From the NCBI GenBank assembly GCA_031292275.1, contig JARLHL010000107.1, forward strand, positions 1 through 35,914: a stretch of 35,914 nt of DNA. The letters are read 5' to 3'. The position numbers were made by a program, and so were the translations under genes. The notes under the pieces were generated by a model. The model did no database searches and was not told where the DNA came from. It saw only the letters and a list, made by a program, of their open reading frames with translations. This DNA comes from Desulfocapsaceae bacterium. Lineage in GTDB: Bacteria > Desulfobacterota > Desulfobulbia > Desulfobulbales > Desulfocapsaceae. Below, piece by piece: positions 21,151-27,059 of this stretch (its first letter is position 1; each line of letters begins with the position of its first letter).

Positions 21151-23553
21151 CTATTTCAGCCAGACCTCAACCCGCCTGTTTTTTTCCCTGCCCTGCTCGG
21201 TGGCGTTGGAGGCCACCGGGTTTTCCTGACCGCAGCTGAAGATCTCGCCCACGCTGATACCGCGGGCCCGCAATTCCGAGGCCACCAGCTGGGCCCTGGC
21301 CATGGCCAGCCTGTAATTATTCTCATAATTCCCTGAATTATCAGCAAAACCAGCAAGAACAATCCGTTTGTCCAGTTTGTTTTCCAGAAAGACAATGATA
21401 CGGTCCAGGTCATGCATGGAACGGTTATCCAGGGCCGTTTCATTCTTTCTGAACCTGAAATTCAGCGACAGACGGTTGGCATTTTTGACCGAATTGAGAT
21501 ACTCCCGGATCTTCGGGGGTGCATCCTTACTCTCATGCTCAGCGGGCTCCAGGGGAAAGGTCCTGATGTTCATATCGACAAATCCGCTCTCCTGCACAAT
21601 TTTCTGCCCCTCGGCAGAAAGAACGAAGTTGATGAAGGGTGCGACATTGGGGTTTTTCGGGATGGAGGCCGTGTACATATACAGTCGCCGGGAAAGAGGA
21701 TAGTCCTCGGTGGCCACCGTGAAAAAGTTCGGATAGATGGCCAGGGCCCCCTCTTCAGAGACCGCCAGGGCCTTAGACTCTCTTACGTAGGGAAGGCCGG
21801 TAAAACCGATTCCCAGAGGGTCGCGGGAGACGTCGTCGGACAACTCCGCATTTGACTCATAGCGTCTGGCGCCAGCGGCAAGCGTCTCCTGTTCGCCTAG
21901 AATAATGCTCTTAAAGGTATCATAGGTACCGGAATTGCCGTCACGGGCATAGACCCCGATCGTCCCCTTCGCGCCATGCAGATCCTGCCAATCGGCAAAC
22001 CTGCCGGCAAAGACCTGCTGCAGATCCTTTACCGTTATCTGGTTGAGAATATTGCCTCTATTGACAATGACAGCAATGCCGTCAAGCCCGACCACATGCT
22101 CGTTGGCCAGAGAGGTCATCTCTCCCAGGAAGGAAAGCTGTTCAATCTCCCCCTCCTTGATCTTCCTGGAGGCATCACCGATATCACAGGTTCCAGTCTT
22201 CAGATCCTCGAAGGCTGTTGCAGAACCGTGGGCCTGGATCTCAACGGCAACACGTCTGCCGTTCACCATCGCCCTGATTATCACCTCGTTCTCCTGAGCA
22301 CCGGGCACACCGGCAATGTCAACGGCATTCAGCCGGGTCTTCAGATAGGCGGTTACCAGCGCCGGGGCAAGGACGGCACCGATGGTGTTGGAACCGTGCA
22401 GCCTGAGAAGGGTCTCTTCGGCAAGAGGCGGACCAGCCTGAGGGACCAGCCCTGTCATCCCGTCGGCAGGAGCAGTCCCCACTGGCAAAGCGGCCTCCGC
22501 ATTCCCTCCGGCGGTGCCCGGAAAGGCCTTGCCGGCCGCTCCTGTCCCGGAAGGATCGCCCCCCTTCTGCGCTTCGCCCTTATCGGCAGCCTGGGCATTC
22601 TCCGGATCCGCAGAGCGGTCCTGCAGACTCTTCTTCCCGGAGACCCTGCCGCCTGAAGAAAAAACAGCCGGGTTCATTCGCCCGTTCCTGCCCTCGTCCC
22701 GAATGGCATACTGCTGAAAGAAGGTCAGGGCAACGAACAGAACAACCATCACCGCAACGCAGATACCGGCATATTTTCTCACAAACCCCCGCGGCCTCCC
22801 CCTTTCGGGGACAGCGGCCCCGGCACATTCATCTTCCGGCTGATCCATGAGACCGGCAAGCACCCCCATGCCGGGCACCGTCTGCCCCTGTTCTTCTCCT
22901 GCTTCATCCAGACTGAGGCTGGCCGTAAGCAGCAGTTGCTGGACATCCATATCAATGTTCGGGGGAGGAAATTTCTTGACTTTGACCTCCTTTATCTGCC
23001 CCTGCCTCCAGGAAATAATCTGACAGAAGGCCTTTTCCCCCTTGAATCCGGCAACTTCGGCATAGGTAATACGCCCGTCGCTGATCAGAATGATCCCCTT
23101 GTGCGCGTCCTTTTTAATCAGGATCGCCTTGGTCACCCTGTTCATGCAGAGCATCTGCACGTAGTCCGCCAGACTGATCCCGGTAATAAGGCCTGAAAAT
23201 CCCTCGCCATCGAAAAGTTGCTTTATACTGCTGACAATTGCCGGAAAATCGAGGGGTTTTCGAACCTGATCATAGATCCTGGGCAAAGTCTTTCTGCTGG
23301 TAGAAGCATCTTCCAGGATGATCATGAAGGAGGCTGCCGGCTGTTTCACCTGCAGATACGGTATGATATCTTTGCCGCCATCGGTCTTGATCAGGGCGTT
23401 CACCAGAATGAGATCAAAATCATGCAGCCCGGCCAGACGCATGAGACCGGGCAAGTCACCGCAGACGGAAACCTCATAGGACTCAGCCCGAAGAAGCTTT
23501 TCCAAGGTCAGGACGACATTATGATCAGGGTCCGCTATAAGAATTTTCTTCAT
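21151..23553 (-). CDS. Pseudo-receiver/DUF4388/TM/PstS-like/OmpA multidomain protein
   Basis: This 800-aa protein appears to span the inner membrane. Residues 1-115 resemble a response-regulator receiver (ILIADPD, VRKPLD), but the phosphoacceptor position has Asn52 (FDLILVN), so phosphorylation is unlikely. Residues about 118-225 match DUF4388 (GLITGISLADYVQML, then ISDGRITYAE). A polar linker leads to one membrane segment near 258-280. A proline/alanine/glycine-rich stretch follows, then a PstS-like periplasmic binding domain (LRLHGSNTIG, VYARDGNSGTYDTF) and a C-terminal OmpA peptidoglycan-binding domain (FADNSGNYENNYRLAMARA, NRRVEVWL). PstS-OmpA fusions are known; the cytoplasmic pseudo-receiver and DUF4388 are the odd part. 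The ATG at 23553 has GGTGGAGGA just upstream. No PstABC or PhoU genes are near, so transport is doubtful; sensing or envelope anchoring is more likely (inference). Confidence 0.88.
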   Translation of the reverse strand: MKKILIADPDHNVVLTLEKLLRAESYEVSVCGDLPGLMRLAGLHDFDLILVNALIKTDGGKDIIPYLQVKQPAASFMIILEDASTSRKTLPRIYDQVRKPLDFPAIVSSIKQLFDGEGFSGLITGISLADYVQMLCMNRVTKAILIKKDAHKGIILISDGRITYAEVAGFKGEKAFCQIISWRQGQIKEVKVKKFPPPNIDMDVQQLLLTASLSLDEAGEEQGQTVPGMGVLAGLMDQPEDECAGAAVPERGRPRGFVRKYAGICVAVMVVLFVALTFFQQYAIRDEGRNGRMNPAVFSSGGRVSGKKSLQDRSADPENAQAADKGEAQKGGDPSGTGAAGKAFPGTAGGNAEAALPVGTAPADGMTGLVPQAGPPLAEETLLRLHGSNTIGAVLAPALVTAYLKTRLNAVDIAGVPGAQENEVIIRAMVNGRRVAVEIQAHGSATAFEDLKTGTCDIGDASRKIKEGEIEQLSFLGEMTSLANEHVVGLDGIAVIVNRGNILNQITVKDLQQVFAGRFADWQDLHGAKGTIGVYARDGNSGTYDTFKSIILGEQETLAAGARRYESNAELSDDVSRDPLGIGFTGLPYVRESKALAVSEEGALAIYPNFFTVATEDYPLSRRLYMYTASIPKNPNVAPFINFVLSAEGQKIVQESGFVDMNIRTFPLEPAEHESKDAPPKIREYLNSVKNANRLSLNFRFRKNETALDNRSMHDLDRIIVFLENKLDKRIVLAGFADNSGNYENNYRLAMARAQLVASELRARGISVGEIFSCGQENPVASNATEQGREKNRRVEVWLK

Positions 23554-23876: not shown

Positions 23877-25595
23877 ATGTTTGCCGTTGACAAGGTACTT
23901 GCTGAACACTATCCCGCCCTCAATAGCAGCAGGATATGCTCTCCGCTGATCAAGTCGATGCTCCGGCGCCTGCTCCATGAACGCGCCTTTGCCGATTTTG
24001 CCGAGCGCTACCCGCACCTGCACGGCATCGAGTTCGTCGAACAGTCTCTGGAGTATTTCGACTTCAGCTACGCCGTCTCGGATCTGGAGCGGGAGAATAT
24101 CCCTGCCGCCGGCAAGGTGATGATCATCGCCAACCACCCCATCGGTTCCCTGGACGGCCTGGCCCTGCTGAAGCTGGTGCACGGGACCCGCTCCGACGTG
24201 AAAATCGTCGCCAACGACCTGCTGATGATGATCAACCCGCTGCAGCCCTTTCTGCTCCCCGTCCGCGCCATGCAGGGACTCAGCGTCAAGCAGCATATTG
24301 CCCGGATAACAGACGCCCTCGACCGGGAAGAGGCGGTCATCATGTTCCCCGCAGGCGAGGTCTCACGTCTGAGCCCCGGCGGCATCCGAGACGGCCGGTG
24401 GCACAAGGGATTTCTGAAAATGGCCGAGCGGGCCAAGGCCCCCATCCTGCCCATCCATATCTCCGGGCGCAACTCCGTCTCCTTCTATCTGGCCTCGCTT
24501 TTGGTGCGGCCCCTGTCGACCCTGATGCTGGTGGGCGAGATGTTCCGCCAGCGCGAGAAGCAGGTCCGGATGACCATCGGCTCCATCGTCCCCTATGAGG
24601 CCTACCGCAATATCTGCCTGGGCCGGAGCGACAAGATCAGGCTGTTCAGGAGGCATGTCTACAGGCTCGGCTCAGGGAAAAAGCCGCTCTTGCCCACGGT
24701 GTCGGCCATCGCTAGGCCCGAGCGCAAGACCGAACTGAAGCAGGCGATGCGCCAGGGCGAGAGGCTGGGCAGGACCCCGGACGGGAAGGCTATCTATCTC
24801 TTCGAGCCGTCGGGCTCGTCGCCGGTGATGCGGGAGATCGGCCGTCTCAGGGAGATAACCTTCCGGGCCGTGGGCGAAGGATCCGGCAAACGCCGCGACC
24901 TGGACATCTTTGACTGGCATTACCGTCACCTCGTCCTCTGGGATGAGGAGGACCTGGAGATTGCCGGCGCCTACCGTTTCGCCGACGCCGGCAGGATCGT
25001 CGAGGAAAAGGGGGCCGCCGGCCTCTATACCGGCAGCCTCTTCGACCTTGACCCGGCAAAATGCCCATTTCTCGACCAGGGCCTCGAACTCGGCCGCAGC
25101 TTCGTCCAGCAGAGGTACTGGGGAAGGCGAAGCCTCGACTATCTGTGGTACGGCATCGGCGCCTTCCTGACCAAAAACCCTCAGTACCGGTACCTGTTCG
25201 GCCCGGTCAGCATCAGCAACGCCATACCCCCGATGGCGCGTGATCTCCTCGTCTATTTCTACAAGCTCTACTTTGCCGGCAATACGCCCGCGCCCTGCTC
25301 CCGGAATCCCTTCAGCTTTTCCCAGCCCCTGTCCACGCTTGCAGCATCCTTCTCGGGCAATGACTATCCGGCGGATTTCAAGACGCTGAAGTCACTGCTG
25401 AACAACCTCGGCACCGCCGTGCCGCCGCTCTATAAGCAGTACACCGAACTCTGCGAACCCGGCGGCGTGGTCTTTCTCGATTTCAATATCGATCCGGCCT
25501 TCAACAACTGCGTTGACGGCCTGGTCATCGTCGATACCGACCGGCTCAAGGAACACAAACGAAAACGGTACATGGAGGAGACCGTCCTCAACTGA
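23877..25595 (+). CDS. olsF: Bifunctional acyltransferase, OlsF-like (PlsC-type plus GNAT-type domains)
   Basis: The N-terminal half (to about residue 290) is a PlsC/hemolysin-type O-acyltransferase with ANHPIGSLDG at residues 85-94 and FPAGEVSR further on. The C-terminal half (about 320-570) resembles the OlsB-type N-acyltransferase fold (REITFRAVGEGSGKRRD, then YRFADAGRI and ELGRSFV). This two-domain arrangement and a length of 572 aa match OlsF, which makes ornithine lipid by N-acylating ornithine and then O-acylating lyso-ornithine lipid. Some relatives work on other amino acids such as glycine. The ATG at 23877 has GGAG 5 bases upstream. It is followed by the PhoH gene 126 bases later, perhaps co-transcribed. 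Confidence 0.85.
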   Translation: MFAVDKVLAEHYPALNSSRICSPLIKSMLRRLLHERAFADFAERYPHLHGIEFVEQSLEYFDFSYAVSDLERENIPAAGKVMIIANHPIGSLDGLALLKLVHGTRSDVKIVANDLLMMINPLQPFLLPVRAMQGLSVKQHIARITDALDREEAVIMFPAGEVSRLSPGGIRDGRWHKGFLKMAERAKAPILPIHISGRNSVSFYLASLLVRPLSTLMLVGEMFRQREKQVRMTIGSIVPYEAYRNICLGRSDKIRLFRRHVYRLGSGKKPLLPTVSAIARPERKTELKQAMRQGERLGRTPDGKAIYLFEPSGSSPVMREIGRLREITFRAVGEGSGKRRDLDIFDWHYRHLVLWDEEDLEIAGAYRFADAGRIVEEKGAAGLYTGSLFDLDPAKCPFLDQGLELGRSFVQQRYWGRRSLDYLWYGIGAFLTKNPQYRYLFGPVSISNAIPPMARDLLVYFYKLYFAGNTPAPCSRNPFSFSQPLSTLAASFSGNDYPADFKTLKSLLNNLGTAVPPLYKQYTELCEPGGVVFLDFNIDPAFNNCVDGLVIVDTDRLKEHKRKRYMEETVLN

Positions 25596-25721: not shown

Positions 25722-27059
25722 ATGCCGATGAAAATCTTCATCCTCGACACCAATGTTATTCTCCACGACAGTTCCTGCATCTACAACTTTGCTGAGCACG
25801 ATATCATCATCCCCATCACCGTCCTGGAAGAGCTGGATAATTTCAAGAAGGGCGGCCAGATCATCAACTACCATGCCCGCCAATTCGTCAGGGAACTCGA
25901 CAAGCTGAGCACCGACAAGCTCTTCAACGGGGGAATGCGCATCGGCGAGGGCATGGGGACGGTGGCAATCCGTCTTGAAATGGAGATGCATCCCGATCTC
26001 CGCAATATCTTCCTCAACGGGCACAAGGAGGACCATCGCATCCTCAATACCGCATACCATATCGCCCAGGCCCAGAAGGATCGCACAGTCATCCTGGTCA
26101 CCAAGGATGTCAACCTCCGGATGAAGGCGCGTTCGGTCAAGCTCATGGCCGAGGACTACACCACCGATTATGTCACCGATCCGGCCCATCTCTACTCCGG
26201 CTGCCGCTGCGAGGAAAACGTCCCCTCGACGGTGATCGAGAAGCTCTACGGCCAGGAAGGCACGATCTCCCCCCTGGACCTCAGCCCCGAGACGCCTCTG
26301 CGCCCCAACGAATACATGGTCCTGCGCAACGGTAAAAAGTCGGCTTTAGCCACCTATGTCGAAGGCGACACCGCCGGCGAATCGGTCATCAGACGGATCA
26401 TCAAGGAGACTGTCTACGGCATCAGTCCGCTCAACGCCGAGCAGTCCTTTGCCGTGCATGCCCTGCTCAACCCCAGGGTCAAGCTGGTCACCATCTCGGG
26501 AAAGGCAGGAACCGGCAAGACCCTGCTGGCGCTTGCGGCAGCGCTGGAGAGCCGCACCCACTACCGGCAGATCCTGCTGACGCGGCCGGTGATCCCGCTC
26601 TCCAATAAAGATATCGGCTACCTGCCGGGGGACATCCAATCCAAGATCAAGCCCTATATGCAGCCGCTCTACGATAATCTGGGCGTCATCCGGAGCCAGT
26701 TTCCCGAGAAGAGCGAGATGTTCCAGCGCCTGCAGAAGATGCTGGACGATGAGAAGCTGGCCATCGAGCCGCTGGCCTACATCCGCGGCAGGAGTCTCGG
26801 AAAGATGTTCATGATCGTCGACGAGGCCCAGAACCTGACGCCCCATGAGGTCAAGACCATCATCACCCGGGCCGGCGAAGGGACGAAGATCGCCCTGACC
26901 GGCGATATCAATCAGATCGACCACCCCTATCTCGGAATCCATTCCAACGGACTCACCACCCTGATCGACAAGATGCAGGGCCAGAGACTCTATGCCCATA
27001 TCGACCTGCGCAAGGGCGAGCGCTCGGAGCTGGCGGAATTGGCCAGCAATATCCTGTGA
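25722..27059 (+). CDS. phoH: PhoH family ATPase with N-terminal PIN domain
   Basis: The 445-aa protein joins an N-terminal PIN nuclease domain (ILDTNVILHD with the first acidic residue at Asp9, then VLEELDNFK and VTKDVNLRMKA) to a C-terminal PhoH ATPase. The ATPase domain has Walker A SGKAGTGKT near residue 260 and Walker B MIVDEAQN near 363, followed by LTGDINQID. PhoH2 proteins of this architecture act as RNA helicase/RNase enzymes. The ATG at 25722 has AGGA 8 bases upstream. The usual ybeY neighbour of the shorter PhoH is absent, which also fits the PhoH2 type. Confidence 0.95.
   Translation: MPMKIFILDTNVILHDSSCIYNFAEHDIIIPITVLEELDNFKKGGQIINYHARQFVRELDKLSTDKLFNGGMRIGEGMGTVAIRLEMEMHPDLRNIFLNGHKEDHRILNTAYHIAQAQKDRTVILVTKDVNLRMKARSVKLMAEDYTTDYVTDPAHLYSGCRCEENVPSTVIEKLYGQEGTISPLDLSPETPLRPNEYMVLRNGKKSALATYVEGDTAGESVIRRIIKETVYGISPLNAEQSFAVHALLNPRVKLVTISGKAGTGKTLLALAAALESRTHYRQILLTRPVIPLSNKDIGYLPGDIQSKIKPYMQPLYDNLGVIRSQFPEKSEMFQRLQKMLDDEKLAIEPLAYIRGRSLGKMFMIVDEAQNLTPHEVKTIITRAGEGTKIALTGDINQIDHPYLGIHSNGLTTLIDKMQGQRLYAHIDLRKGERSELAELASNIL

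Follow-up and report, generated by a model that had tools for sequence, protein, structure and literature searches.

A predicted single-pass membrane protein that joins a receiver without its phosphorylation site, a PATAN domain, a PstS-like domain and an OmpA domain in a Desulfocapsaceae bacterium

One gene, at positions 21151-23553 of a 35,914-nucleotide stretch of Desulfocapsaceae DNA (the window), raises the question of what a protein would do that carries a receiver-like domain and DUF4388 (PF14332), which we take to be the PATAN domain, on one side of a predicted membrane segment, and a phosphate-binding-like domain and a peptidoglycan anchor on the other. The gene, with all the parts given below, lies on the minus strand and encodes 800 amino acids, from an ATG at 23553 to a stop at 21151. 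The purine-rich stretch AAGGTGGAGGA ends at the ATG. By layout the gene stands alone, i.e., a radical-SAM gene is convergent downstream and an acyltransferase gene is divergent upstream. The order receiver, DUF4388, PstS domain and OmpA in one protein, claimed in the first-pass annotation, was borne out by Pfam, by structure models and by six other genomes. The models were built as two parts, i.e., residues 1-225 (AlphaFold, mean pLDDT 82.3) and residues 376-800 (mean pLDDT 84.5, pTM 0.77).

The pseudo-receiver, residues 1-118 (23200-23553), was recognized by Pfam, a Spo0F-like model and a residue readout. The Response_reg match at residues 4-110 was under the Pfam cut-off, i.e., 23.1 vs 30.2 bits. 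The best fold matches of the model of residues 1-225 were receivers, with Spo0F (1pey_C) at Z 18.7 and rmsd 1.8 over 113 residues, so that structure prediction, which could have denied a receiver fold, found it. Set against the phosphorylatable receivers (PF00072), the protein has the fold and lacks the phosphorylation site. The acceptor position, residue 52, is Asn, as had been noticed from the letters alone. The acidic pair is D8/P9, the Thr/Ser position is Leu80, and Lys99 is kept.

As a family, the four-domain proteins lack the acceptor Asp. It was missing in all seven, where Asn, Asn, Ser, Ser, Ser, Pro and Thr stand at the position, and in a truncated relative from genome G163, which has His. 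The fused set was otherwise mixed, i.e., the acidic pair was retained in G141 and the Lys in five of eight, with the G163 fragment counted. The full site, i.e., acidic pair, acceptor Asp, Thr and Lys, was retained in 41/41 receiver-DUF4388 relatives that have no membrane part and are presumably soluble; the acidic pair is Glu-Asp in one of them (L160). This comparison set was chosen by similarity to the query and holds 41 of 44 matches, with two in G044 and one in G050 left out, as was a partial G018 match with two stops. In a receiver-PATAN tree, the ten fused rows, which include two PATAN-only rows and the G163 fragment, fell on one side of a branch and the other 41 on the opposite side (support 100/99); the tree has long branches, the window row among them. 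The fused receivers group as one clade, and the Asp may thus have been lost only once. An ordinary phosphorelay role was disfavoured because the acceptor Asp is lost in 7/7 four-domain proteins.

The DUF4388 domain, residues 121-217 (22903-23193), belongs to its Pfam family with 44.8 bits against a cut-off of 25. Ten-residue blocks of residues 131-210 had pLDDT 79-93 in the model of residues 1-225. The fold matches to this model span only residues 1-119, so the DUF4388 identification is that of the Pfam match. The PF14332 profile also matched in Synechococcus, supporting the PATAN identity. The available text of two papers reports that PATAN binds PilB, the pilus motor, in cyanobacteria (PMC10519157, PMC7690835), and that of a third places PATAN genes near some mglA/mglB genes (PMC4316618). 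The window genome has seven T2SSE-family matches above the cut-off and two roadblock matches, of which one is marginal and one lies in the receiver-DUF4388 protein of that genome. Full-length T2SSE-family ATPase matches were found in 9/9 genomes examined. The T2SSE profile matched in 14/14 control genomes (13 above the cut-off), so its presence says little and only permits the idea of a PATAN-motor link.

A single hydrophobic segment, predicted to be transmembrane, was found at residues 261-279 (22717-22773) and is preceded by RGRPRGFVRK; it was located by hydropathy scan only. The best 19-residue hydropathy mean of the protein was 2.57. The topology drawn in the first-pass annotation, with the receiver and DUF4388 inside and the other two domains in the periplasm, fits the single segment and its basic N-terminal flank; the basis is hydropathy and flanking charge, which predict that the N-terminus lies in the cytoplasm. 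A linker of 104 residues (280-383; 22405-22716), rich in Ala, Gly and Pro, follows.

The PstS-like periplasmic-binding domain (PBP), residues about 384-665 (21559-22404), was assigned by Pfam, TIGR02136, alignments and the model. The PBP_like_2 match at residues 434-648 scored 89.8 bits (cut-off 27). TIGR02136, the PstS family, matched residues 434-661 with E 5.2e-52 and 176.9 bits, under its cut-off of 206.6; the fold and ligand-site motifs of the family are present, at a score below that curated for the whole protein. The best fold matches of the residues 376-800 model were phosphate-binding proteins, i.e., 4omb_A (Z 32.4, rmsd 2.4 over 258 residues), and phosphate-bound 4gd5_A gave Z 32.1 and rmsd 1.7 over 242. 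Candidate ligand-site residues are S388/T390, S444, R537 and S541-G542-T543. The columns of R537, S541, G542 and T543 were invariant in 15 rows, of which two are PBP-OmpA proteins and 13 are PBP stretches taken from other loci. The motifs AHGSxT and RDxxSGTxDTF were invariant in 23 PBP-OmpA proteins, the conservation alignments covering 23 of 30 PBP-OmpA loci. GSNTIG is invariant in the same 23 rows by construction, because the rows were trimmed at that motif, and it varies in two loci outside them, i.e., GSTTIG in L150 and GSNTVG in L151. The conserved motifs align with what we take to be the phosphate-contacting residues of E. coli PstS; by eye, the position of Asp56 of E. coli PstS is Ser here. 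Judged from the model, the domain is a candidate for binding phosphate or a related anion.

The OmpA-like domain, residues 701-793 (21175-21453), was supported by Pfam (PF00691, 54.7 bits, cut-off 27.2), alignment and model, and it has the wall-binding Asp and Arg of the family. The columns of these residues, Asp738 and Arg753, were invariant in 23/23 rows. They presumably sit at the diaminopimelate-binding positions of OmpA/Pal, and the domain is predicted to grip peptidoglycan. YfiB/Pal-type OmpA lipoproteins have the fold and the wall-binding residues in common with the window protein. They are, however, outer-membrane lipoproteins without a PBP or cytoplasmic part.

To find the same domain order elsewhere had been proposed as a check, and it was seen in six other genomes of the window's order. 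Among 257 genomes of this order, 23 matched the protein at E 1e-33 or better. All four domains were present in seven, i.e., the window genome, G168, G008, G145, G021, G141 and G112, which belong to two families, G112 being from the other one. The arrangement is not unique to the window. Identity to the window protein was 41.9% (G168, G021), 39% (G145), 37.9% (G008) and 36.4% (G112), and G141 aligned in two pieces (47% and 30%). The four-domain frames had no stops; that of G021 was cut by a contig end. G016 and G178 encode DUF4388, membrane segment, PBP and OmpA without a receiver, and G016 has an extra copy with the membrane segment only. G163 has receiver-DUF4388 only and no PBP-OmpA. In G193 and G195 the N-terminus is Cys-rich and zinc-ribbon-like, with no match among the Pfam profiles tried. 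The other eleven genomes have at most about 85 residues before the PBP and no cytoplasmic module; hydropathy scans found a hydrophobic segment in ten of their twelve PBP-OmpA proteins. Since 11 of the 23 genomes have PBP-OmpA in this form, the ectodomain also works without a cytoplasmic module.

The window's genus has two other genomes. G001 gave a PstS-type match only, and in G002 (63% complete) a C-terminal piece of 55 residues, with 85% identity, was found where a contig ends. Of 395 genomes drawn from the phylum, six matched at 1e-45, i.e., the window genome and G008, then G297, G332 and G407 (all three zinc-ribbon-like) and G451 (kinase domain). The plasmid search gave no record covering 80% of the window protein, the best being a Pseudoalteromonas PBP-OmpA protein; when plasmids were searched with a PATAN part, three Deinococcus records were the sole matches.

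Across these sequences a wider family emerges, in which PBP-OmpA stays constant and the N-terminal module has been exchanged. The modules were pseudo-receiver-PATAN, PATAN alone, zinc-ribbon-like, helical and, in another order, a kinase domain. In a PBP-OmpA tree of 28 of the 30 loci, the two with a variant GSNTIG motif being left out, the PATAN-only and membrane-segment-only proteins nested beside the four-domain protein L117, which makes secondary loss, first of the receiver and later of PATAN, the probable course. This tree did not resolve the two four-domain groups as one.

The kinase version was recognized in the G451 protein (L143:7780-9981), in which a Pkinase match (E 3.3e-38) is followed by a weak hydrophobic stretch, PBP and OmpA. 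In G451's order, 9/141 genomes matched at 1e-60. The Asp of the kinase HRD motif is catalytic. It is replaced in 9/9 kinase domains of PBP-OmpA proteins (L143, L196-L203), where HRD reads HRG, and in two of the nine DFG also reads GFG; this count does not include L204, which is the remaining half of the kinase gene of G767. The best 19-residue mean before the PBP was 1.21-1.45 in eight rows and 1.79 in one, so that eight of nine are under the segment threshold of 1.6, which leaves it less certain that the kinase version inserts into the membrane. With this reserve, two unrelated modules on the PstS-OmpA ectodomain apparently lack the phosphotransfer residue. The proposal that the protein couples periplasm and cytoplasm in one piece gains support from these module swaps on a constant PBP-OmpA, the kinase-like domain included, and is to that extent partly upheld.

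The reading put forward, with confidence a little short of even, is that the protein is a wall-held single-pass inner-membrane receptor or scaffold that works by docking rather than by phosphotransfer. The OmpA domain would hold peptidoglycan, and the PstS-like domain, on its 104-residue tether, would bind phosphate or a related anion. Contact with the ligand or the wall would move the protein or alter its oligomeric state, and the pseudo-receiver-PATAN part would then dock a cytoplasmic partner without phosphotransfer. The most plausible partner would be a PilB/GspE-type motor ATPase or an MglA/roadblock polarity protein, and the state of the ectodomain would set where or whether this partner is held. 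The relatives with an intact phosphorylation site and no membrane part may be the phosphorylated branch of the same output. The PATAN-motor link in this protein is proposed by analogy, being carried over from cyanobacteria. Also weighing against the reading are the PBP-OmpA proteins that have no cytoplasmic module, the weak hydrophobic stretch of the kinase version, the finding of PhoU in just 2/30 PBP-OmpA loci and the chance that the Asp was lost a single time. If the reading is true, the protein shows how a docking module in the cytoplasm can be driven by a periplasmic binding protein and a wall anchor without an intervening kinase cascade, and PATAN, tied to pilus motor control in cyanobacteria, is governed by an external ligand.

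Known proteins resemble parts of this design. FrzS of Myxococcus xanthus has a pseudo-receiver that works by protein binding, i.e., to SgmX, which acts on PilB; unlike here, its second domain is a coiled-coil, and the available text mentions no PATAN, membrane or periplasmic part (PMC11580455). PixE, PixG and LsiR of cyanobacteria join a receiver and PATAN as the window protein does, and their action on the pilus motor is shown or proposed (PMC7690835, PMC10519157). The available text of these papers describes them as response regulators and does not mention a periplasmic part, whereas the receiver of the window protein is dead. The receiver-DUF4388-roadblock protein L156, which comes from the window's taxonomic order and is the one receiver-DUF4388 relative scanned by Pfam, has a homologous receiver-DUF4388 part, but its C-terminal roadblock domain replaces the membrane segment, PBP and OmpA, and the phosphorylation site is intact in these relatives. 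PstS-OmpA proteins, e.g., the 'phosphate ABC transporter substrate-binding/OmpA family protein' WP_152441739.1 of Pseudoalteromonas, have homologous PBP and OmpA (41.4% identity, query residues 371-799), yet the N-terminus of WP_152441739.1 is a short stretch and a hydrophobic segment without a receiver or DUF4388 match. No description of the four-domain architecture was found in the open-access collection searched, which misses most subscription-journal papers. The parts are known, and the swapped, partly dead modules, absent from the first reading, are the interesting point. It is possible, and offered tentatively, that they mark a new receptor family in which a constant PstS-OmpA ectodomain carries exchangeable modules repeatedly stripped of catalysis, so that anion binding or wall contact would recruit cytoplasmic machines and thereby link nutrient or wall state to the control of pili or polarity, with no phosphotransfer. 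The loss of catalytic residues in two unrelated modules on one kind of ectodomain is a testable pattern.

A static envelope scaffold, in which OmpA sits on the wall, PATAN tethers a pilus or type II secretion motor and the PstS fold is a ligandless spacer, is considered rather unlikely. The OmpA wall-binding residues invariant in 23 rows agree with it, the dead receiver and the kinase-like domain fit a binding role, and PATAN-PilB binding in cyanobacteria is a precedent in the available text of PMC10519157 and PMC7690835. The ligand-site motifs, however, are among the best conserved columns, which is unexpected for a spacer.

An accessory phosphate scavenger was also considered and is judged unlikely, i.e., a protein whose PstS-like domain serves the Pst transporter by gathering phosphate close to the wall and whose cytoplasmic part only anchors or localises it. 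It would agree with the strong PstS fold and site. PhoU genes were found in the G178 locus (same strand) and the G125 locus (divergent), with PstS-like genes alongside; in G178 one strand carries DUF4388-PBP-OmpA, a dksA-type gene, phoU, a PstS-like gene and a permease-like gene. However, this linkage was seen in only 2/30 PBP-OmpA loci. The window genome has, elsewhere (L154), a PstS-type match and transport permease genes that resemble the ones in the pst operon of G125, and transport leaves a conserved receiver-PATAN or kinase-like module unexplained. It had been stated that no pst or pho genes are near. This held for PhoU, PstS and Pst permease queries, which matched nothing in the window, but a PIN-PhoH gene (25722-27056) lies two genes away. 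A similar gene stands beside the receiver-less relative in G016. The divergent acyltransferase gene (23877-25592), joined to a GNAT-type acetyltransferase domain, has similar genes near the G016 and G178 relatives. Common to the window and the receiver-less G016 locus are the acyltransferase gene, the PIN-PhoH gene and one small gene; with the G178 locus the window has the acyltransferase gene in common.

An unconventional two-component output, in which a histidine kinase, neighbouring or distant, binds the pseudo-receiver or phosphorylates another residue, is very improbable. Inspection of neighbours for kinases, which the first-pass annotation had suggested, found histidine-kinase genes in 4/7 four-domain loci. 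In G112 a HAMP-HisKA-HATPase histidine kinase gene (L123:6736-8169) lies 234 bases upstream of the four-domain gene on the same strand; others lie about 2.7 kb away in G008 and G145 and about 7.5 kb away in G141. These genes are counted against the docking receptor, since two-component input by some route is possible. Such genes are common, so the neighbourhood is weak evidence, yet it leaves room for a kinase contacting the pseudo-receiver. Against a two-component output, no histidine kinase was identified next to the four-domain gene in the window, in G168 or in G021, the acceptor Asp is gone in every four-domain protein, and close kin of two four-domain relatives (G016, G178) have no receiver at all. 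Motility genes, also looked for, were not identified among the neighbours in relatives, most of which were not Pfam-scanned. A conserved operon was ruled out, as no gene family was common to all the four-domain loci; the lack of a shared partner gene family is likewise counted against the docking receptor. Because genes were called simply by picking open frames, neighbours that are small or broken may have escaped notice. The close pair G008/G145 has a hybrid histidine kinase, a Peripla_BP_6 protein, a Zip transporter and a MarC protein in common.

That unrelated genes were fused by chance or in assembly, or that the gene is decaying, is hardly credible and was rejected although the truncated G163 relative exists, because the order recurs in 7/257 genomes of two families, in frames without stops and with a single contig-end cut. 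In that apparently truncated relative (L135:9181-10254), the receiver-DUF4388 frame precedes a short one that encodes a membrane segment but lacks PBP-OmpA.

Other genes were observed near the versions with other N-terminal modules. In G451, a GGDEF-EAL protein gene lies 30 bases upstream of the kinase-like PBP-OmpA gene. Genes resembling it (L134:7326-9203 and L149:6449-8293) adjoin the zinc-ribbon-like PBP-OmpA genes of the G193/G195 pair. A Tubulin_2 gene was found near three of five zinc-ribbon-like loci, i.e., L144, L145 and L146, from three genomes of two families. A DUF4388-HDOD protein (L145:1086-3269, G332) is encoded about 5 kb from a zinc-ribbon-like PBP-OmpA gene.
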